Assembly: GCA_032881465.1 (NCBI GenBank)
Contig: CP126168.1
Coordinates: forward strand, 2,232,001-2,296,000
DNA length: 64,000 nt
Reading direction: 5' to 3'
From: Parvibaculaceae bacterium PLY_AMNH_Bact1
GTDB lineage: Bacteria; Pseudomonadota; Alphaproteobacteria; Parvibaculales; Parvibaculaceae
The position numbers and the translations under genes were made by a program. The notes beneath the pieces are model-generated. The model made no database searches, was not told the origin of the DNA, and worked only from the letters and a program-made list of their open reading frames with translations. The number at the start of each line of letters is the position of its first letter. The stretch's first letter is position 1. This document shows, piece after piece, positions 6,435 through 14,478 of the stretch.

Positions 6435-7136
6435 TCACGCCGCAGCCGAACGCTTCGCCAAGAACTCAACAAACTGAAAATCAAGTTCCGTATCAATGTC
6501 GGCAGACCGCTCCTCCGGCATCTCATAGAGATGTGTCTTCGGGAGGAATAAGCCAGCATCACTCATTAGTGTTGCGCGACGCCATACATATATGGATCCG
6601 TTCATATCAAACGTCCGTGGCGCATCCTGTCGGCGAACAATGGGCGGATCAGACGGCTTTGACAGTCCAACTGACCCGTCACGACGCTCTTCAACCAGAT
6701 TAAAGTAGGGAGAACACTTCGCGGGCGACCCGGTAATAACATTATCCACATCGCCGTCATCAAGCAGAGCGACCGCCTCGACAATATCGCTGGGCAACCG
6801 CAAGGGCGATGTCGGTTGCAAATCCGCAACAACATCGAACACCTGTCCAATTTTTGTCTCAACCGTTTCGACGCAATGGCGAATTGCAGGAAGTTTAGCA
6901 GCAGTGTCCGTTGCAAGGTCCGGCGGGCGCTGAACAAGATGTTGGACACCCGCGGCACGCGCAGTGTCCAAAATTGCCTGGTCGTCGCTGGATACAGCGA
7001 TATGCTCGAAAAGCTTGCTGGCTTGTGCCTGCTCAATGGAATGAACGATCAAGGGCTTACCTGAGAGCAGCCTAATGTTCTTGCCGGGAACTCCTTTGGA
7101 TCCCCCTCGGGCGAGTATAGTGCAAAGCCGTATCAC
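6435..7136 (-). CDS. Acylneuraminate cytidylyltransferase (CMP-nonulosonate synthetase, LegF/NeuA type)
   Basis: A 233-residue enzyme that activates a nonulosonic acid (legionaminate- or sialate-like) with CTP. The N-terminal nucleotide-binding motif LCTILARGGSKGVPGKN and the later LQPTSPLR and FDMNGSIYVW segments are characteristic. It starts at GTG, with a 4-bp overlap (GTGA) with the preceding nucleotidyltransferase gene, so translation is coupled. It is the last gene of the eight-gene operon and catalyses the last cytoplasmic step before transfer to a glycan or flagellin. No transferase that would use the CMP-sugar is present in the window. Confidence 0.9.
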   Translation of the reverse strand: MIRLCTILARGGSKGVPGKNIRLLSGKPLIVHSIEQAQASKLFEHIAVSSDDQAILDTARAAGVQHLVQRPPDLATDTAAKLPAIRHCVETVETKIGQVFDVVADLQPTSPLRLPSDIVEAVALLDDGDVDNVITGSPAKCSPYFNLVEERRDGSVGLSKPSDPPIVRRQDAPRTFDMNGSIYVWRRATLMSDAGLFLPKTHLYEMPEERSADIDTELDFQFVEFLAKRSAAA

Positions 7137-8197
7137 ACCCGTTCTTTCTCACCGAAGACTTTGCCGAACTCTTCCTGTGCCTGCTGCAAGTCGTCCAACT
7201 GGCCGATATCAATCCAATACTCATGAATCGGAAAAGCGCTCGCGAGCCCACCCTCAGAGATCACCTGATCGAACAAGGTTGGCATGTCATACATCTCACC
7301 CTCAGGCACGTGGTGCAGCACAGCGGGTGACAGCGCATACACGCCACCGTTCACAAAATAGTTCTGGGTGGGCTTCTCGTTGATTTCGGAAATCTGATTG
7401 CCGCTCATCTCAATGACCCCATAAGGCACCTGGAAGCGGTACTCCCGCACCCCCATTGTCGCGTCCGCCACCTGATCCACGTGAAAATCAAGAAGCCGTC
7501 GAAAGTTAATCGCAGTGACCAGATCCGCATTCATAACCAGAAACGGAGCACTTGGTGTTTCTGGCAGGAGCGTCAAGGCACCAGCTGTGCCCAACCGTTT
7601 GCTTTCTTCCAAATAGGAAATGTCGACACCCCACTCATGCCCGTCACCAAAATAGGCTTCTACCTTCTCCGCTTGATAGTTCACTGACAGAAAGATGCGC
7701 TTGAACCCCTGCTCTGCCAGCCGTTCAATAATGCTCTCAAGCACCGGCTTCCCGCCCACGGGGATAAGAGGTTTGGGAAGATTTTCTGTGAGGGGCCGAA
7801 GCCGGGTTCCCAGACCACCTGCCATAATCACAACCCAATTGTCGCTTCGGTCATCCTGAACGATGCGACTCAGTGTCTCAAGGCCCGTCAATACGCCGTC
7901 TGCATCAACAATCGGCACCTGGGCGATCTGATACTCCCGCATCCAGCGCATCACCGTTTTCCGGTCAATGTCAGGGCCTGCAGTGATGGGATTTGCCTTC
8001 ATCACATTGCCAACCGCCGCATCAAGGGTTTCGCTGCGAAGGATGGCGCGGCGAACGTCACCGTCCGTTATGGTCCCCAACAGTCTCCCATCCGGATCAA
8101 CAACAAGTGCGATCTGGAGCGCACTTTCGTCAAGATTTCTAATCGCCTCTCCCAGAGTGGCGCTTGGGTCCAGAACTGCCTTTTTCCAATGAGCCAT
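7133..8197 (-). CDS. CBS-domain sugar-phosphate nucleotidyltransferase (PtmE-like)
   Basis: A 354-residue protein with two N-terminal CBS repeats (about 5-120) and a C-terminal nucleotidyltransferase domain (about 122-345, motif MAGGLGTRLRPLTENLPKP). This architecture is that of Campylobacter PtmE, which makes GDP-glucosamine at the start of the GDP-linked legionaminic acid route. Its presence argues for legionaminate-type rather than true sialic acid chemistry, though the nucleotide and sugar cannot be read from sequence. A very strong AGGAGG precedes the ATG. It begins 8 bp after the synthase gene and overlaps the cytidylyltransferase by 4 bp. Confidence 0.88.
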   Translation of the reverse strand: MAHWKKAVLDPSATLGEAIRNLDESALQIALVVDPDGRLLGTITDGDVRRAILRSETLDAAVGNVMKANPITAGPDIDRKTVMRWMREYQIAQVPIVDADGVLTGLETLSRIVQDDRSDNWVVIMAGGLGTRLRPLTENLPKPLIPVGGKPVLESIIERLAEQGFKRIFLSVNYQAEKVEAYFGDGHEWGVDISYLEESKRLGTAGALTLLPETPSAPFLVMNADLVTAINFRRLLDFHVDQVADATMGVREYRFQVPYGVIEMSGNQISEINEKPTQNYFVNGGVYALSPAVLHHVPEGEMYDMPTLFDQVISEGGLASAFPIHEYWIDIGQLDDLQQAQEEFGKVFGEKERV

Positions 8198-8205
8198 ACG
8201 GCCTC

Positions 8206-9279
8206 CTACTGGGTAATCATGTCATCAGGCGCATAGGCGCGCGCTGCGTGGGTTCCAAGAAGCGACCAATAGAGCTCTGGACGGAGACCTGTTCCCGGCC
8301 TTTTAACGGTGAGGTTTTCAGTCGTAAATATGTCGCCGGCATTGATCGCCTTGCACGCGACCAAGGATTTCCGGCCAATCGCCATATTGCTGATTTCGGC
8401 TGGCCGCGGCTCCTTGTTCCCGTCACCGAGACCGGCTGACACACGTCGCACGCCCTCAACAAGGCCCTTCAACTCTTCCGGTGTCGCAGACGCCTTATGG
8501 TCAGGTCCTGGCAGTTCCTTGTCCAGCGTATAGTGCTTCTCGATAATACAGGCTCCTATTGCCACCGAAGCAATCGCATGAACGATCCCTTCGCTGTGAT
8601 CTGAAAACCCGACAGGTAAATCAAACTTTGCGCGAAGCGTCTCAATAGCCCTGAGGTTTACATCCACGTCCGGTGTTGGGTAGGAGCTCGTGCAATGCAA
8701 CAGTTTGACACGGGACTTGAGAACAGTTTTACCCGCCTCGCTCTTAAACGCCTCTTTGAATGCCATTTCGCTAGGCGCGCACTCGCCAAGGTACCCATGC
8801 GCCACCACGCCCAGCATGGTCTCCACTTCATTCAATGTCGCCATGCCTGTCGAAAGAATGAGGTCGCGACCTGCCTTCGCACAAGCATGCAGAAGGGGCG
8901 CGTTGGTAAGTTCACCCGAACCGACCTTCAAAGTTGCGACACCAAGATCATTGGCGAGAAGATCCAGGCTGTCCAGATCAAACGGGGTCGAGAGAAACTG
9001 CACCCCCTTCTCGGAACATCGTTGAATAAGCGCCCGGTGGGCATGCTCATCAAGCTCCAGCGCTCGCAGCATATCCAACTGCGTTTCGCTCTTATCGGTC
9101 GTTTCTTTTTGATAGTCGGCTTTGGGTGCACTACGCGTCACCAAGGCTTCAGCGTTGAATGTCTGAAACTTAACAACATCCACACCAATGTCGGCAGCGA
9201 CATCGACCATCTCAATAGCACGCTCCAGAGATCCATTGTGATTGACCCCTGCTTCAGCGATCACCGTGACGTGGTTCAT
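8206..9279 (-). CDS. Nonulosonic acid synthase (NeuB/LegI family)
   Basis: A 357-residue enzyme that condenses phosphoenolpyruvate with a six-carbon amino sugar to give the nine-carbon acid. The N-terminal barrel (about 1-285) shows EAGVNHNGSLERA, VKFQTF, the LKVGSGELTN strand, LSTGM and GFSDHSEG. The C-terminal antifreeze-like SAF domain follows (about 295-357, KRPGTGLRPELYW). The sugar (ManNAc for sialate, or 2,4-diacetamido-2,4,6-trideoxymannose for legionaminate) is not fixed by these motifs; the operon's aminotransferase favours the latter. It overlaps the upstream deacetylase gene by 4 bp and has AGAGGTGAGG before the ATG. Confidence 0.92.
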   Translation of the reverse strand: MNHVTVIAEAGVNHNGSLERAIEMVDVAADIGVDVVKFQTFNAEALVTRSAPKADYQKETTDKSETQLDMLRALELDEHAHRALIQRCSEKGVQFLSTPFDLDSLDLLANDLGVATLKVGSGELTNAPLLHACAKAGRDLILSTGMATLNEVETMLGVVAHGYLGECAPSEMAFKEAFKSEAGKTVLKSRVKLLHCTSSYPTPDVDVNLRAIETLRAKFDLPVGFSDHSEGIVHAIASVAIGACIIEKHYTLDKELPGPDHKASATPEELKGLVEGVRRVSAGLGDGNKEPRPAEISNMAIGRKSLVACKAINAGDIFTTENLTVKRPGTGLRPELYWSLLGTHAARAYAPDDMITQ

Positions 9280-9947
9280 GGCCTCACCTCTTTAAGAAGC
9301 ATAAAGGCTTCTGCTGCCGCATATCCTGCCTCCGCACCACGCACCTTCTCTTTCGCATCGACAATTTCTAAGCTTCGTGGAAACGGTGCCTCACCCACCT
9401 CTTCACCATAAAGCTCAATGATGGACTTCTTCTTCGCGGACCAGTCCGTAATGTTCTCATAGAGGGATGGGATAAAATCCAGACCCCCAGGCCGCCTTAC
9501 AATGTCCGTTTCCGAGAGTGTTTCGTATGCCAAAACACGCCGGATGTAGGGCGCGCGAAACCATTTGGTGCAAGACAGAGCCGCATCAAACGAGATTTTG
9601 TGATCCGTGTGAGCGTCGCCGGGGAACGGTAAATAGACGTCAGATGGCTGAACCTCTGAGACGATGTCCGAAATCCTCTTCACAACCTCACCAACGGGCG
9701 CAATGTCAAGCGCCGCTGTCTCATACCCAAGGCGATGAATCGATTGAAAGCCAAAAGCTTCTGACACCGCTTCAATCTCGCGCTCGCGAGTCGTGATACG
9801 TTCCGCTGAATAACCAGCAGACTCTGTCATCTCTGTCAGGATCAACCAATGCACGCGGTTTCCGGCATGACAGGCCTTTAGCAGGGTGCCGCCACAGCCA
9901 AAAGTCTCATCATCTGGATGAGGGGCGACGACCAAAATGTCAGACAT
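9276..9947 (-). CDS. PIG-L/LmbE-family deacetylase
   Basis: A 223-residue zinc-dependent de-N-acetylase. The metal-binding motif APHPDDETFGCGG is at residues 8-20, and the second metal-ligand region is FPGDAHTDHK (about 112-121). Family members remove N-acetyl groups from GlcNAc-containing substrates. It sits between the hydrolysing 2-epimerase and the synthase, with a 4-bp overlap to the latter, so it is an integral part of the operon. A deacetylase is not needed for standard Leg5,7Ac2 or Neu5Ac synthesis. I infer that it exposes an amine on an intermediate or product, possibly for the operon's GNAT to re-acylate. Confidence 0.88.
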   Translation of the reverse strand: MSDILVVAPHPDDETFGCGGTLLKACHAGNRVHWLILTEMTESAGYSAERITTREREIEAVSEAFGFQSIHRLGYETAALDIAPVGEVVKRISDIVSEVQPSDVYLPFPGDAHTDHKISFDAALSCTKWFRAPYIRRVLAYETLSETDIVRRPGGLDFIPSLYENITDWSAKKKSIIELYGEEVGEAPFPRSLEIVDAKEKVRGAEAGYAAAEAFMLLKEVRP

Positions 9948-9959
9948 GCTCCCTCCCCT

Positions 9960-11129
9960 TCAAAATGTATTGCGCTTCTGAACCAACCGCCGCTGGTCGG
10001 TTTCTTGGACAAGCACATCGCAAATCTGCTTGCCCGCCGTTCCATCGCCATACGGATTTTGTGCGGCAGCTACCTGCGTACGGTATTGCCCATCGAAGAC
10101 AGCCTTTTTGAGAGCCGCTTCAATCTCCGTTGCGTCATAATCAACAAATTCCACATTTGCCGCGTGCTCACGGCCAACCTGGCGACTCCCCACATTCACC
10201 ACTGGGAGCTTCAGTAACGGCGCTTCAATGATCCCGCAACTGGAATTGCCAACCAGAGCAGCCGCATGACGCATGAGGTTTACAAACACAACCCGCGATA
10301 GGTTTTTGTAAGCAACAAGCTTTGGATGACGGTTCGCATAGTCAGACAGGAGGCGCGACATAGCGTGGTTGCCGGGATCACTGTTGGGGCCCGAAATGAA
10401 AGTGGGTAGATCGCAGGCAACGACCGCATCGAGTGTGGCCTTCATTTGCCGCTCAGCATCATCCATCTCCGGCAATAGTGGGTGCTGAATCATGACGAGA
10501 AAAGGCCCTTCAACAGGTACCACATTCATCATTTTCCAGACACAGGCCAAATCGATTTCAGGTTCATCCACAAGCCGATCAAGACCAGGCGCACCAACAT
10601 TGTGAACGCGCCAAGGTTCCTCTCCAAGACGCAAAACCCGCTCCGCACTGCCAGCCGATGCTGTCATGTGAAGGTGCGCTAACTTTGTAACCGCATGTCT
10701 CACGGAATTATCAATATTGAAATCATCAGCCGTATCGCCACCAGCAATGTGAACGACAGGAATGTCAAGATAGCCACCCGTCAGGGCAACGGTCATGGCC
10801 TCTTCTCTGTCACCAACGACAACTAGAAAGTCAGGTCGTCGAAAAGCGACAACATCGACCAATCCTTGCAATTGGATTGCCGCCGACTTCGCACGAGCAG
10901 CATCACTGTCAGAAGCAAGAAGGTTGTCAATCTTTGCGACGACCGGATACCCATCAGCTTCCACATCCTTGACCGTCAATCCATAGACCGACGCAAGATG
11001 ACTGCCAGTAACAATTACCTCAGGTCGCAATGATTGCGACCGCGATACAGCGTCAATTACGGGGTAAAGGATGTCATATTCAGCCCGTGAGCCAGTAACA
11101 AACATCACACACCGAATGTCAGAAGACAT
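9960..11129 (-). CDS. Hydrolysing UDP/GDP-sugar 2-epimerase (NeuC/LegG family)
   Basis: A 389-residue enzyme that releases a nucleotide and epimerises C2 of a GlcNAc-type sugar, giving ManNAc or its 4-amino-6-deoxy analogue. Visible family segments are FVTGSRAEYDILYPV at the N-terminus, VVGDREEAMTVA, IPVVHIAGGDT, and the C-terminal VGNSSCGIIEAP with its nucleotide-binding loop. It overlaps the acetyltransferase gene by 11 bp and is followed after 12 bp by the deacetylase. With the synthase and cytidylyltransferase it forms the core nonulosonate module. Confidence 0.9.
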   Translation of the reverse strand: MSSDIRCVMFVTGSRAEYDILYPVIDAVSRSQSLRPEVIVTGSHLASVYGLTVKDVEADGYPVVAKIDNLLASDSDAARAKSAAIQLQGLVDVVAFRRPDFLVVVGDREEAMTVALTGGYLDIPVVHIAGGDTADDFNIDNSVRHAVTKLAHLHMTASAGSAERVLRLGEEPWRVHNVGAPGLDRLVDEPEIDLACVWKMMNVVPVEGPFLVMIQHPLLPEMDDAERQMKATLDAVVACDLPTFISGPNSDPGNHAMSRLLSDYANRHPKLVAYKNLSRVVFVNLMRHAAALVGNSSCGIIEAPLLKLPVVNVGSRQVGREHAANVEFVDYDATEIEAALKKAVFDGQYRTQVAAAQNPYGDGTAGKQICDVLVQETDQRRLVQKRNTF

Positions 11130-12072
11130 CGGACATCACCATGCGGACAGACCATGAGCGGCTATCCAGGAGATCACTCCCCGACCCAAGGACCCGTCCA
11201 CCCATATATGTAACGGGACCACCTGCCCTGAAACCGACTTTCTCTATCGCAGGGAACATCGGGTCAAATACAGGCAACCACAAATTGAGCTGCGTTGCAC
11301 CATCACCGCGCGCAATGGCTGCGACACTTCCGATAAGAGCACCGACAGTCTCCGGTGTTGCGGCGAGCTCGACAATATCAACGGCATTTTTGTGACGTTT
11401 AAACACAGCAAGACCTAACCCACCCTCTCCGCCAGCGACGCCAATGCGGTAGTCATTTTCTGGGTCTTCCAGCATCCGCCAATTGTAGTAGGCGATGTCG
11501 CGCCCCAGCGAGACTTTAGCTGGTGAGGGGGCAATACTTGGCAGCCAATCACTAAAGCGATCAACCTGCGCAAAGCTCCGGCCCGGTGTGTCAGGGAACT
11601 TCATATCGTCAATGGACGCTGTCATTAGCGGTACCGGCGCCATATCCTCCCATCCCAAATTCTGTACAAAACCCCGATGACTGTTGCTGTTGGGGAAACC
11701 GAAAACCATCCGGTACCCCTGTTTCGCAAGGCGATCGTATAAGCGCTCAGCCAACTGTGGGAACAGGCCCATCCCCTGATAATCCGGATGAGTCATTATC
11801 GTCATGGACAGCGCGGCTTTACCTGTATCTCTCCCGATCGTTAGTGGCATCGGCGACACAGCATAATGCGCTGCAAGCATGTCTCCATCCCAGGCAAGTT
11901 CGATCATTGGTGCATCAATTGGATTGTCACGATAACGCCAGTTCCAATATTCCTTGGACATAGGCTTTCCGAACGCTGCCTGGAACAACGCCAAGATGGC
12001 CTGCTCGTCACCAGGACGGAAAGGCCGGAAATCCAAATCATGTGCATGAAACGTCGTTGCTGCATTCAACAT
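11119..12072 (-). CDS. GNAT-family acyltransferase, probable nonulosonate-pathway N-acyltransferase
   Basis: A 317-residue protein. The N-terminal half carries a GNAT fold, with a strand and loop around MTIMTHPDYQGMGLFPQLAERL (acetyl-CoA pyrophosphate loop, Q-G-M-G). The C-terminal half (about 180-317) resembles a second, degenerate acetyltransferase-like domain. It occupies the operon place expected for the N-acyltransferase step (LegH). Characterised LegH/PglD enzymes of this step are, as far as I recall, of a different fold (left-handed beta-helix), so this is either a substitute or a late modification enzyme. GGAGAAAACCC precedes its ATG, and it overlaps both neighbours. Confidence 0.8.
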   Translation of the reverse strand: MLNAATTFHAHDLDFRPFRPGDEQAILALFQAAFGKPMSKEYWNWRYRDNPIDAPMIELAWDGDMLAAHYAVSPMPLTIGRDTGKAALSMTIMTHPDYQGMGLFPQLAERLYDRLAKQGYRMVFGFPNSNSHRGFVQNLGWEDMAPVPLMTASIDDMKFPDTPGRSFAQVDRFSDWLPSIAPSPAKVSLGRDIAYYNWRMLEDPENDYRIGVAGGEGGLGLAVFKRHKNAVDIVELAATPETVGALIGSVAAIARGDGATQLNLWLPVFDPMFPAIEKVGFRAGGPVTYMGGRVLGSGSDLLDSRSWSVRMVMSDVF

Positions 12073-13277
12073 GGGTTTTCTCCAAGTGGTACACTTGAGG
12101 GAACGTTAATAAGGCGGGCTTCAATGTTGCGGGCACCATCAAGCGGCATGGAGGGTGCACCGACATACATCGGTAAATCTTTCATCAGAGTCCACGTGGG
12201 TCGCGTCATGAGGCCTGCATCATTCGTGGCTTCAAGAACCGCATCGCGTGTTTCAATTGAAGGCTCGTCAAGCAGGAGGCAGTTCAACCAATAGTTCGCG
12301 CGACCAAAACACCGTTCGCGGAAAGCGCTGACGCCAGCAATAGATTCAAAGGCTGATACATATCGTTCAGCAAGGGAGCGCTTGCGCTCAATGTAGGAGG
12401 GAAGGCTTTCAAGCTGTGCGCAGCCCAATGCTGCATTGAGGTTTGGCAGACGAAAATTATATCCGACAGCATCATGGTCAAAAGCCCACCGATGGGTCAC
12501 TTTCGCTGTTGTCGTCAGATGCTTGGCACGAGCGGCAAGGTCCGCATCATCAGTGACAATCGCCCCACCGCCACCAGTTGTGATAATTTTGTTGCCGTTA
12601 AAACTGATTGCTGCCACCCGGCCGAGCGACCCGCATTTTTCACCTTTGTAGACACTGCCGAGAGACTCAGCTGCATCTTCAACAATCGGAATACCATGCC
12701 GCGCAGCAATCGCGATCAGTGGCTCCATATCCACCGGATGCCCGTAGGTGTGCATCGGAACGATGGCACCCAGGCGGCGCCCTGTCAGGCGGTTTCGGAC
12801 ACCTTCCAGAGAACGCTCTGCAACATCGTGGAGATACAAATCAAGTTTCACTGGATCCAGACCAAGAGTCGTTGGATCGCTATCGACAAAATGAGGGATA
12901 GCCCCGAGATACGAGGCAGCGTTAGGTGTTGCAACAAATGTAAGCGCCGGCATCAGCACCTCGTCCCCCACGCCCACACCAACAATCTCAAGTGCAATCT
13001 GAAGCGCGGCGGTACCGTTTACGACGGCAACACCATGTGCCACGCCAGATTGCGCGGCAACTTCAGATTCAAAACGCTCAACGTAAGAACCAACAGAGGA
13101 AACCCAGCCGGTATCAAGGCAGTCTTTCACATACTCCCACTCCGTCCCTTCAAAGTGGGGTACATGAAGCGGCTGAAAAGAATGATCTTCATCCACGCCA
13201 ATAGCCGAACGGATCCCTGCTACCACTTGAGTAGGATCCACCTGTTCATAAGGCTGATTGAGTGTCGCAAGACCCAT
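12066..13277 (-). CDS. PLP aminotransferase, LegC type (DegT/DnrJ/EryC1 family)
   Basis: A 403-residue sugar aminotransferase, expected to aminate a 4-keto-6-deoxy nucleotide sugar at C4. Lys230 in SFNGNKIITTGGGG is the PLP-binding lysine, and NGTAALQIALE and VEDAAESLGS form the cofactor pocket. The longer leader region around residues 1-40 and HVPHFEGTEWEYVKDCLDTG are typical of the LegC subgroup. I start it at 13277, which has GAGGAG upstream, rather than 12 codons earlier. It begins 10 bp after the SDR gene. A 4-aminotransferase implies a 4-keto substrate, hence a 4,6-dehydratase somewhere in the genome. Confidence 0.9.
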   Translation of the reverse strand: MGLATLNQPYEQVDPTQVVAGIRSAIGVDEDHSFQPLHVPHFEGTEWEYVKDCLDTGWVSSVGSYVERFESEVAAQSGVAHGVAVVNGTAALQIALEIVGVGVGDEVLMPALTFVATPNAASYLGAIPHFVDSDPTTLGLDPVKLDLYLHDVAERSLEGVRNRLTGRRLGAIVPMHTYGHPVDMEPLIAIAARHGIPIVEDAAESLGSVYKGEKCGSLGRVAAISFNGNKIITTGGGGAIVTDDADLAARAKHLTTTAKVTHRWAFDHDAVGYNFRLPNLNAALGCAQLESLPSYIERKRSLAERYVSAFESIAGVSAFRERCFGRANYWLNCLLLDEPSIETRDAVLEATNDAGLMTRPTWTLMKDLPMYVGAPSMPLDGARNIEARLINVPSSVPLGENPC

Positions 13278-13287
13278 AAGGCTCTCC

Positions 13288-14478
13288 TCAGGCGGCGGCT
13301 TCCTCACGCACATCGTAGTTCCCGTAATAACCCGGGATCTCTTCTGAACGCAGATAAAGACCAGATCGAACAGCTTCGATTAGCTCAGGCACAAAAGCTT
13401 TGACGGAGTAGCGCGGTTCAAACCCCAACACATTTTTGATCTTGGCAAAGGACACCCGGTAGTTGCGCGGGTCACTCCCCTTTTCGACATAAGAAACCTT
13501 GCCCTCAATGTGGCTGAGGATTTCATCAATGATCATTGCCTTGGTGTAATTGTTTTCATCTGCGCCAACATTGAACACTTCGCCGCGCACTTTCTCTTCC
13601 GGTGCTTCAAGCACCCGGATGACCGCGCCGGCAATATCGCGCACATGACAGTAAGGACGCCACGTATCCTTGTCGTAGACATCCAGCGCTTCGCCTCGGG
13701 CGAGAGCTGCCGTGAATTCATTTACCGTCAGATCAAACCGCATGCGATGGCTCAGGCCAAATGCTGTGGAGATGCGGAGCACAGTTGGGATCGTCTCAGA
13801 TGTTCTTCCTTGCTCCAGCAAAAACCTCTCAAAATCAACCTTGGTTTCTGCATAGATGGAGAGCGGTTTCAAATCGGACGTTTCGTCCGCAGGCTCGTCA
13901 CTGTCACGCATGCCGTAATTGGAACACGTCGACGTAAAGACAAATTTGTGGATGCCGCGCCCTTCAAGAGCTTTAAAGACTGTCTCTGATCCTGCCTGAT
14001 TAACAGACCGTGTCAGGTCCGGGAATTTTTTGGAAATCGGATCGCCTACCAAGGAGGCCAGCAGCACAACGTCAGTCACACCATCAAGAGCGCGTGCAAG
14101 TGTTGCTTCATCTCGCAGATCACCCATCACCAGACTAAAGCCTGGCTCGTCATAGAGGCCTTCGAGGGAGAGCGAATTGGAGTAAAGAAAATTGTCGAGA
14201 ACGCGGGTTTTGTAGCCGCGCTTCAGCAGCTCGCGCACCATGACAGATCCGACATACCCGGCACCGCCGATAACCAGAACATGCCGCGGTTGAACCATCC
14301 CACGCTTCGCGGACCTGGCAAGTCGAGAGAGCTCGTCCTGCAAGGCGTCAGCGGCAACCCGCGGGTCTTCACCCTCGATTTGCGCGGCGCAATTGCGAAT
14401 CGCCTGAGCGTAAACCTCGTCCATCACGGCGGGCTCGGATTCCCCGTTCTCGCCAATACCGTCAATCGTCAGTGCCAT
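13288..14478 (-). CDS. NAD(P)-dependent extended SDR (epimerase/dehydratase) with N-terminal extension
   Basis: A 396-residue protein and the first gene of the nonulosonate operon. About 65 acidic helical residues precede the Rossmann motif GGAGYVG (71-77). The active site reads TSTCSNYG (182-189) and YAETK (209-213), giving the Ser/Thr-Tyr-Lys triad. Nucleotide-sugar 4,6-dehydratases such as RmlB and LegB carry an Asp/Glu pair after the Thr, which is absent here, so this is more likely an epimerase or reductase. The start at 14478 is chosen because AGGGAG precedes it and the longer frame adds nothing recognisable. It sits where legB normally lies. Confidence 0.85.
   Translation of the reverse strand: MALTIDGIGENGESEPAVMDEVYAQAIRNCAAQIEGEDPRVAADALQDELSRLARSAKRGMVQPRHVLVIGGAGYVGSVMVRELLKRGYKTRVLDNFLYSNSLSLEGLYDEPGFSLVMGDLRDEATLARALDGVTDVVLLASLVGDPISKKFPDLTRSVNQAGSETVFKALEGRGIHKFVFTSTCSNYGMRDSDEPADETSDLKPLSIYAETKVDFERFLLEQGRTSETIPTVLRISTAFGLSHRMRFDLTVNEFTAALARGEALDVYDKDTWRPYCHVRDIAGAVIRVLEAPEEKVRGEVFNVGADENNYTKAMIIDEILSHIEGKVSYVEKGSDPRNYRVSFAKIKNVLGFEPRYSVKAFVPELIEAVRSGLYLRSEEIPGYYGNYDVREEAAA

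Follow-up and report, generated by a model that had tools for sequence, protein, structure and literature searches.

A legionaminate-type operon of Parvibaculaceae bacterium PLY_AMNH_Bact1 with a likely Cj1427-type dehydrogenase in the LegB position and a transferable GNAT-NeuC-PIG-L cassette

PtmE provides a step of the guanosine diphosphate (GDP)-linked legionaminic acid pathway. The steps given for this pathway are LegB, LegC, LegH, LegG, LegI and LegF, with 5-N-formyl-legionaminate as a known sugar for which a possible formyltransferase is proposed in Halorubrum; neither 'deacetyl...' nor 'PIG-L' occurs in the main text of that paper (PMC6137143). A second described system is the GDP-sugar enzyme Cj1427 of Campylobacter jejuni, reported to oxidise GDP-heptose at C4, binding NADH tightly and being recycled by alpha-ketoglutarate, with the 6-deoxy series arising via a separate 4,6-dehydratase (PMC10680097). 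Here a nonulosonic acid operon that resembles both is described from a stretch of 64,000 nucleotides (hereafter the window) of Parvibaculaceae bacterium PLY_AMNH_Bact1 (GCA_032881465.1, contig CP126168.1, positions 2,232,001 to 2,296,000).

The operon comprises eight consecutive open reading frames, all on the minus strand of the window between 14478 and 6435, transcribed in the order SDR (short-chain dehydrogenase/reductase), LegC, GNAT, NeuC, PIG-L, NeuB, PtmE and NeuA with intergenic distances of 10, -7, -11, 12, -4, 8 and -4 bases. The encoded pathway is of the GDP-legionaminate type and a new variant of it, in which two substitutions can be told apart, the SDR for LegB and a GNAT-NeuC-PIG-L cassette. 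On balance it probably makes a cytidine monophosphate (CMP)-activated 5,7-diamino nonulosonate with the 9-hydroxyl retained and N5 re-acylated. Homologues of PtmE, LegC, LegG, LegI and LegF stand in the order of the legionaminate locus L090, so that the LegC, hydrolysing epimerase, synthase and CMP-transferase of the canonical pathway are all present, but the SDR in the LegB slot lacks the dehydratase glutamate, LegH is missing from the operon, a GNAT and a PIG-L are added and NeuC belongs to another clade. An earlier note on this DNA had described eight genes on one strand overlapping or at most 12 bp apart, which the distances of -11 to 12 confirm, and its view of a CMP-nonulosonate operon with legionaminate-type enzymes is borne out by LegC, NeuB and NeuC, each of which exceeds its NCBIfam cut-off. 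Its suggestion of a modified or new nonulosonic acid appears the best reading of the operon, to which a predicted product can now be attached.

Judging from its sequence, the SDR (13288..14478, minus strand as for all eight genes; 396 amino acids) is likely a Cj1427-type C4-dehydrogenase oxidising without dehydration. It scores 80 bits against the LegB model TIGR04180, below the cut-off of 475 for a canonical LegB, while its best match in the PDB by phmmer was Cj1427 (6vo6/6vo8) at 3.9e-44 with the second at 2.1e-22. When the predicted SDR model (mean predicted local distance difference test score, pLDDT, 71.6) was searched with Foldseek the first six rows were all Cj1427, and VIA-align 2 placed Cj1427 at the top (Z 34.5, root-mean-square deviation 2.5 Å, 301 aligned) and 2hun second (33.1). 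Other SDRs follow closely, and the modelled fold by itself would not settle the SDR type. A further comparison concerns the catalytic glutamate of the dehydratase motif TSTSEVYG. At this position of TSTSEV(Y/F)G a glutamate was found in 23 of 23 LegB-model matches (10 above cut-off) and in both GDP-mannose-dehydratase-like controls from the same genome, and in the SDR family the 38 readable of 41 rows had serine (37) or alanine (1) and never glutamate, the other three (L104, L112, L114) not being aligned at the motif. Cj1427 likewise has serine. The window SDR reads TSTCSNYG, retains YxxxK as YAETK and carries RMRFDLTVN, part of a stretch S.RMR.DL.VN in common with Cj1427, so that these sequence features of a Cj1427-type enzyme are present together. 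The SDR differs from Cj1427 in its partners, an aminotransferase and nonulosonate enzymes rather than an epimerase and a reductase, and in an N-terminal extension of about 60 residues (14298-14478) with two helices predicted at low confidence, which is present in L025-L028 and unaligned in L017, L018 and L030. The earlier note had seen no clear 4,6-dehydratase in this gene, in agreement with the low score and the serine; placing it as Cj1427-type goes further in that it predicts which atom differs, the 9-hydroxyl being kept.

Comparison of loci shows whose place the SDR has taken. The order in L090 is LegB-LegC-NeuC-NeuB-LegH-PtmE-NeuA and in L017 and L018 SDR-LegC-NeuC-NeuB-LegH-PtmE-NeuA, the same but for the first gene, so the SDR occupies the place of LegB. 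LegC above cut-off was found in 12 of 289 genomes of the class, with LegB above cut-off directly upstream in seven, a LegB fragment in one (G231) and the SDR in four. These four, from two genera, had no LegB at 1e-80, and the eight with LegB or its fragment had no SDR at 1e-60 (0/8). In the genome of the organism (3.74 Mb, one contig) the LegB model gave 12 matches, none above cut-off and the best at 110 bits, so that the separate legB for which the earlier note had advised looking was not found. The LegC tree requires three changes of SDR/LegB type and the NeuB, PtmE and NeuC trees two each, and in the NeuC tree the window clade stands apart with support of 100/100. A clean phylogenetic split with repeated independent swaps is not claimed, a single origin being compatible with the starred branches.

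The GNAT-NeuC-PIG-L trio is one transferable cassette, consisting of a GNAT acyltransferase (11119..12072; PF13527, 62 bits, cut-off 25), a NeuC/LegG hydrolysing 2-epimerase of a variant clade (9960..11129; TIGR03568, 377 bits, cut-off 236) and a PIG-L/LmbE-type N-deacetylase (9276..9947; PF02585, 86 bits, cut-off 28). All eight genes are found in this order in L025, L027 and L029 as well, 78-98% identical to those of the window, so the operon is conserved rather than a chance arrangement; this was the search in related genomes that the earlier note had proposed. The Rhodobiaceae metagenome-assembled genomes L026 and L028 have six genes only (SDR, LegC, NeuC, NeuB, PtmE, NeuA), without GNAT, PIG-L or LegH; their SDR, LegC, PtmE and NeuA are 67-85% and their NeuB 65-69% identical to the window, but their NeuC merely 33% and 38%, and the flanking genes of the window are retained in L026 as judged by eye. 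The absence of GNAT and PIG-L together with a divergent NeuC indicates that the three change together. On plasmid pEmeITTGR7c of Sinorhizobium mexicanum the trio has the identical order, in NeuB-LegH-GNAT(35%)-NeuC(46%)-PIG-L(49%), with PtmE-LegC-LegB on the opposite strand, the LegB being 69% identical to a reference LegB. Since the trio stands there alongside both LegB and LegH it is an addition to the legionaminate pathway, and unlike in the window a 9-deoxy product is predicted for that locus. Relatives of the GNAT at 1e-15 were found in 2 of the 289 class genomes, both in this genus, and in 12 plasmid records with S. mexicanum (35%) at the top. The earlier note was right that GNAT and PIG-L both depart from the described route, but they are parts of one cassette with its own NeuC, not separate oddities.

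In the window group and in S. mexicanum NeuC has the same altered loop, GGD..DD.N.DN, which includes an extra residue. Its DN pair is confined to these five rows, the other 15 rows having DE or DD and 10 of those 15 GGE, and the extra residue is also found in Halorussus L165. In Ensifer adhaerens L169, where NeuC-PIG-L-NeuB is accompanied by LegB and LegH, the loop starts with GGD too and no GNAT match was found in the locus. An ATP-grasp protein (PF02655, PF15632; L169 9607-10593) follows the PIG-L and NeuB genes there and is perhaps a third type of N-acyl installer. The plasmid contexts inspected were 2 of 53 records for SDR, 2 of 99 for PIG-L (S. mexicanum and E. adhaerens), 3 of 12 for GNAT and 3 of 5 for NeuC, through which Halorussus was reached. 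Compared with the PDB by sequence the GNAT gave a best E of 0.045, which is uninformative, and its fold, predicted from four closely similar rows (86-94%), had a mean pLDDT of 40 and was not used.

The partners of PIG-L point to the function of the cassette. At 1e-45 the clade of this PIG-L had seven matches in the 289 class genomes, all seven in nonulosonate loci beside hydrolase and/or synthase genes, and outside this genus five of five adjoin a formyltransferase by Pfam, in legionaminate loci (L093, L094, L151) and in pseudaminate loci (L152, L153) where PseG and PseI above cut-off flank the pair. The operon differs from these loci in that the acyl-installing partner is a GNAT. The residues H10, D12, D13, H113, D115 and H116 (motifs HPDD and HxDH), presumably the metal site, are invariant in six rows. 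The 7-amine arrives free and can be acylated directly, while the 5-amide derived from N-acetylglucosamine (GlcNAc) needs a deacetylase, so that PIG-L most likely frees N5 by stripping the C5 N-acetyl, for re-acylation by GNAT here and by formyltransferase in the other loci. Since the trio lies beside LegH in S. mexicanum, the GNAT is probably the re-acylation partner of PIG-L and probably not the replacement for LegH for which it had been taken. The alternative, in which GNAT substitutes for LegH at N4 while the 5-amine stays free after PIG-L or PIG-L works on another sugar, is rather unlikely although the strongest of the rivals; it would explain why GNAT sits between LegC and NeuC in an operon without LegH, and a co-swapped NeuC would encounter the N4 group. 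Against it, the trio occurs together with LegH, and elsewhere PIG-L proteins of this clade have formyltransferases as partners, three such loci showing an N4-acetyltransferase candidate as well, LegH-like in L093 and L094 and in L152 a GNAT domain that forms one protein with PseG. The prediction of a 9-hydroxyl would be the same under this alternative.

The PIG-L and N-formyltransferase pairs themselves (L093 5974-7550, L094 12768-14311, L151 74-1626, L152 8459-9804, L153 1587-2971) may represent a general route by which N-formyl nonulosonates are made. In Halorussus caseinilyticus an archaeal plasmid has genes annotated as NeuB, PIG-L and NeuC with formyltransferases nearby. No report matching a legionaminate or nonulosonate with PIG-L or a deacetylase plus formyltransferase was found in the open-licence PMC literature, where a broader search brought up PMC6137143 as the one paper on this subject judged by title.

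If GNAT acts at N5, N4 requires another enzyme. A NeuD/PglD-family protein is encoded elsewhere in the genome (TIGR03570, 186 bits, cut-off 161) adjoining a gene for a LegC/PglE-like aminotransferase, with homologues of 48-71% identity in all five further genomes tested, among them the genomes that hold L026 and L028, and our guess is that it carries out the N4 acylation, with GNAT as the alternative. The earlier note had held that its reading would be refuted by a complete legB and legH elsewhere, with Leg5,7Ac2 as the only product, and of the two genes the legH half has thus been found in part, as the NeuD/PglD-family protein, but no legB. By eye the NeuD/PglD-family and PglE/LegC-like genes lie behind a PglC-like sugar transferase (G000:C1:966000-968200; L089 13-2172, L022 16817-19003). 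A Polysacc_synt_2 (CapD/PglF-like) protein with 378 bits is encoded near glmU- and glmS-like genes (G000:C1 near 1606600-1608700; L023 8666-10618). The genome probably holds a second amino-sugar route of the bacillosamine type, and NeuB (PF03102) has one match in the genome, that of the operon.

The remaining genes of the operon encode LegC, a pyridoxal phosphate-dependent aminotransferase (12066..13277, with an alternative upstream start possible at 13313; TIGR04181, 498 bits, cut-off 420), the NeuB/LegI nonulosonate synthase (8206..9279; TIGR03569, 454 bits, cut-off 400), a PtmE-type protein with CBS and NTP_transferase domains, predicted as a GlcNAc-1-phosphate guanylyltransferase (7133..8197), and a NeuA/LegF-type CMP-nonulosonate cytidylyltransferase (6435..7136) matched by CTP_transf_3 (PF02348) only, the nearest NCBIfam model being PseF at 126 bits, below its cut-off of 206. 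In the pathway proposed for these enzymes PtmE, whose specificity for GDP is one of our inferences, would produce GDP-GlcNAc, which the Cj1427-like SDR would oxidise at C4 without loss of water, its bound NAD being recycled via alpha-ketoglutarate. LegC would then aminate the 4-ketone, and the alpha-ketoglutarate that it releases from glutamate could serve to recycle the SDR. After N-acylation of the 4-amine, by a PglD-type enzyme from elsewhere or by GNAT, NeuC would epimerise C2 and remove GDP to give a 2,4-diamino-mannose with a C6 hydroxyl. Just before or just after NeuC, PIG-L would remove the GlcNAc-derived acetyl at N2 (later N5) and GNAT install a different acyl group, after which NeuB would condense the sugar with phosphoenolpyruvate and NeuA add CMP. 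Each of these reactions, and the final sugar, is deduced for this organism from homology.

Oxidation at C4 without dehydration keeps the C6 hydroxyl, so C9 of the nonulosonate would bear a hydroxyl instead of a methyl. The free sugar would be a 5,7-diacylamido-3,5,7-trideoxy-nonulosonate with a 9-hydroxyl, a 7-acylamido-neuraminic skeleton, of which the di-N-acetyl form is Neu5Ac7NAc. Published work treats this 7-N-acetyl sialic acid as a stable synthetic compound that imitates 7-O-acetyl sialic acid, or as a probe on arrays, differing from Leg5,7Ac2 only in the C9 oxygen, uncleaved by most of the human and bacterial sialidases tested and little bound by pooled human immunoglobulin G (PMC9840695, PMC11356810). 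In the open-licence PMC literature no report was found of Neu5Ac7NAc as a natural product, nor of a legionaminate route with a 4-dehydrogenase or a 9-hydroxyl, the one paper there that mentions legionaminic acid being about vertebrate sialyltransferases. At just short of even chances the operon may represent a natural route to 7-acylamido-7-deoxy-neuraminic acid, in which a C4-dehydrogenase feeds LegC and a mobile cassette replaces the N5 acetyl. If so, the Neu5Ac7NAc-type skeleton becomes a natural product with enzymes available for its synthesis, and legionaminic acid is a single enzyme swap away from sialic acid. Nonulosonate operons would in that case be built from modules, the exchange of LegB for a C4-dehydrogenase setting C9 and PIG-L with formyltransferase or GNAT setting the acyl group. 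The latter rule predicts from genome sequence, in a way open to testing, where N-formyl and other N5-acyl nonulosonates should occur.

Several observations weigh against this pathway. The identity between the SDR and Cj1427 is only about 30%, GalE-type epimerases are structurally nearly as close (Z 31-33) and a GalE-like control lacks the glutamate too (alanine). The known substrate of Cj1427 is GDP-heptose, not GDP-GlcNAc (PMC10680097). LegC and NeuB still satisfy the models of the ordinary pathways, and the CapD/PglF-like and PglD/PglE-like genes could provide a 6-deoxy-4-keto sugar. The split between LegB and SDR rests on few lineages, G000 and G009 being one genus and G121 and G225 another, and G196, which falls outside the 12 class genomes with LegC above cut-off, holds an SDR relative (4e-67) and a sub-cut-off LegB-like match (388 bits) on separate contigs. 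The operons of L026 and L028 contain no GNAT, PIG-L or LegH, so that no gene in them is assigned to N4 acylation, and around two weaker plasmid relatives of the GNAT (L166, L168) there is neither NeuC nor PIG-L. Lastly, among the ten next-best SDR relatives a LegC-like aminotransferase was undetected in nine (L132-L140; 6-19 kb fetched).

It is unlikely that the SDR is instead a dehydratase using other residues, with an ordinary 9-deoxy legionaminic acid merely re-acylated by the cassette as the product. Such an enzyme would be at home in the LegB slot beside a LegC that satisfies the LegC model, and the cassette is found with a true LegB in S. mexicanum, but serine replaces the glutamate in all 12 SDR rows L011-L032, window included, against its presence throughout the LegB-model matches, and the nearest solved relative is a non-dehydrating C4-dehydrogenase. 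More doubtful still is a C4-epimerase, with LegC using the 4-keto-6-deoxy sugar of the CapD/PglF-like dehydratase to give legionaminate or an epimer, for although GalE-type folds nearly tie with Cj1427 and the Polysacc_synt_2 and PglD/PglE-like genes occur elsewhere in the genome, a LegC supplied from outside needs no epimerase, the operon carries its own nucleotidyltransferase in PtmE, and LegB (or its fragment) or the SDR immediately precedes LegC in all 12 class genomes with LegC above cut-off.

The SDR belongs to a wider family, with matches at 1e-60 in 27 of 398 genomes of the phylum, its own included. Genomic context was examined for 13 of these phylum-level matches, the ten next-best and three weaker. 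The SDR relative in L131 is near an aminotransferase and a nucleotidyltransferase, and in the weaker relatives an aminotransferase is 0.5 kb (L141), 1.7 kb (L142) and about 5 kb (L143) distant. An aminotransferase also adjoins the SDR in L019, in Haloterrigena L164 and in the Cupriavidus plasmid L167 (nucleotidyltransferase-SDR-aminotransferase), and is one gene further in L031. Amination is thus one recurrent partner function of the SDR family and not the sole one. Five relatives 42-44% identical to the window SDR (L132, L136, L137, L139, L140) directly adjoin an MptE-like (Maf) protein at 130-150 bits (cut-off 34.6), and these loci are possible flagellin-glycan sugar genes; no MptE/Maf protein (PF01973) was found at 1e-3 in the genome of the window.

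None of the eight operon genes encodes a glycosyltransferase, and by eye the operon is flanked by a ferredoxin-like gene upstream and a chorismate-mutase-like gene downstream. An apparent SDR-PtmE fusion of 628 amino acids in L031 was rejected, the SDR tail being in a different frame, which more likely reflects a frameshift error in a draft contig. In L019 (4045-5469) a PtmE-type CBS domain is fused in frame to the SDR (474 amino acids) with the aminotransferase next.

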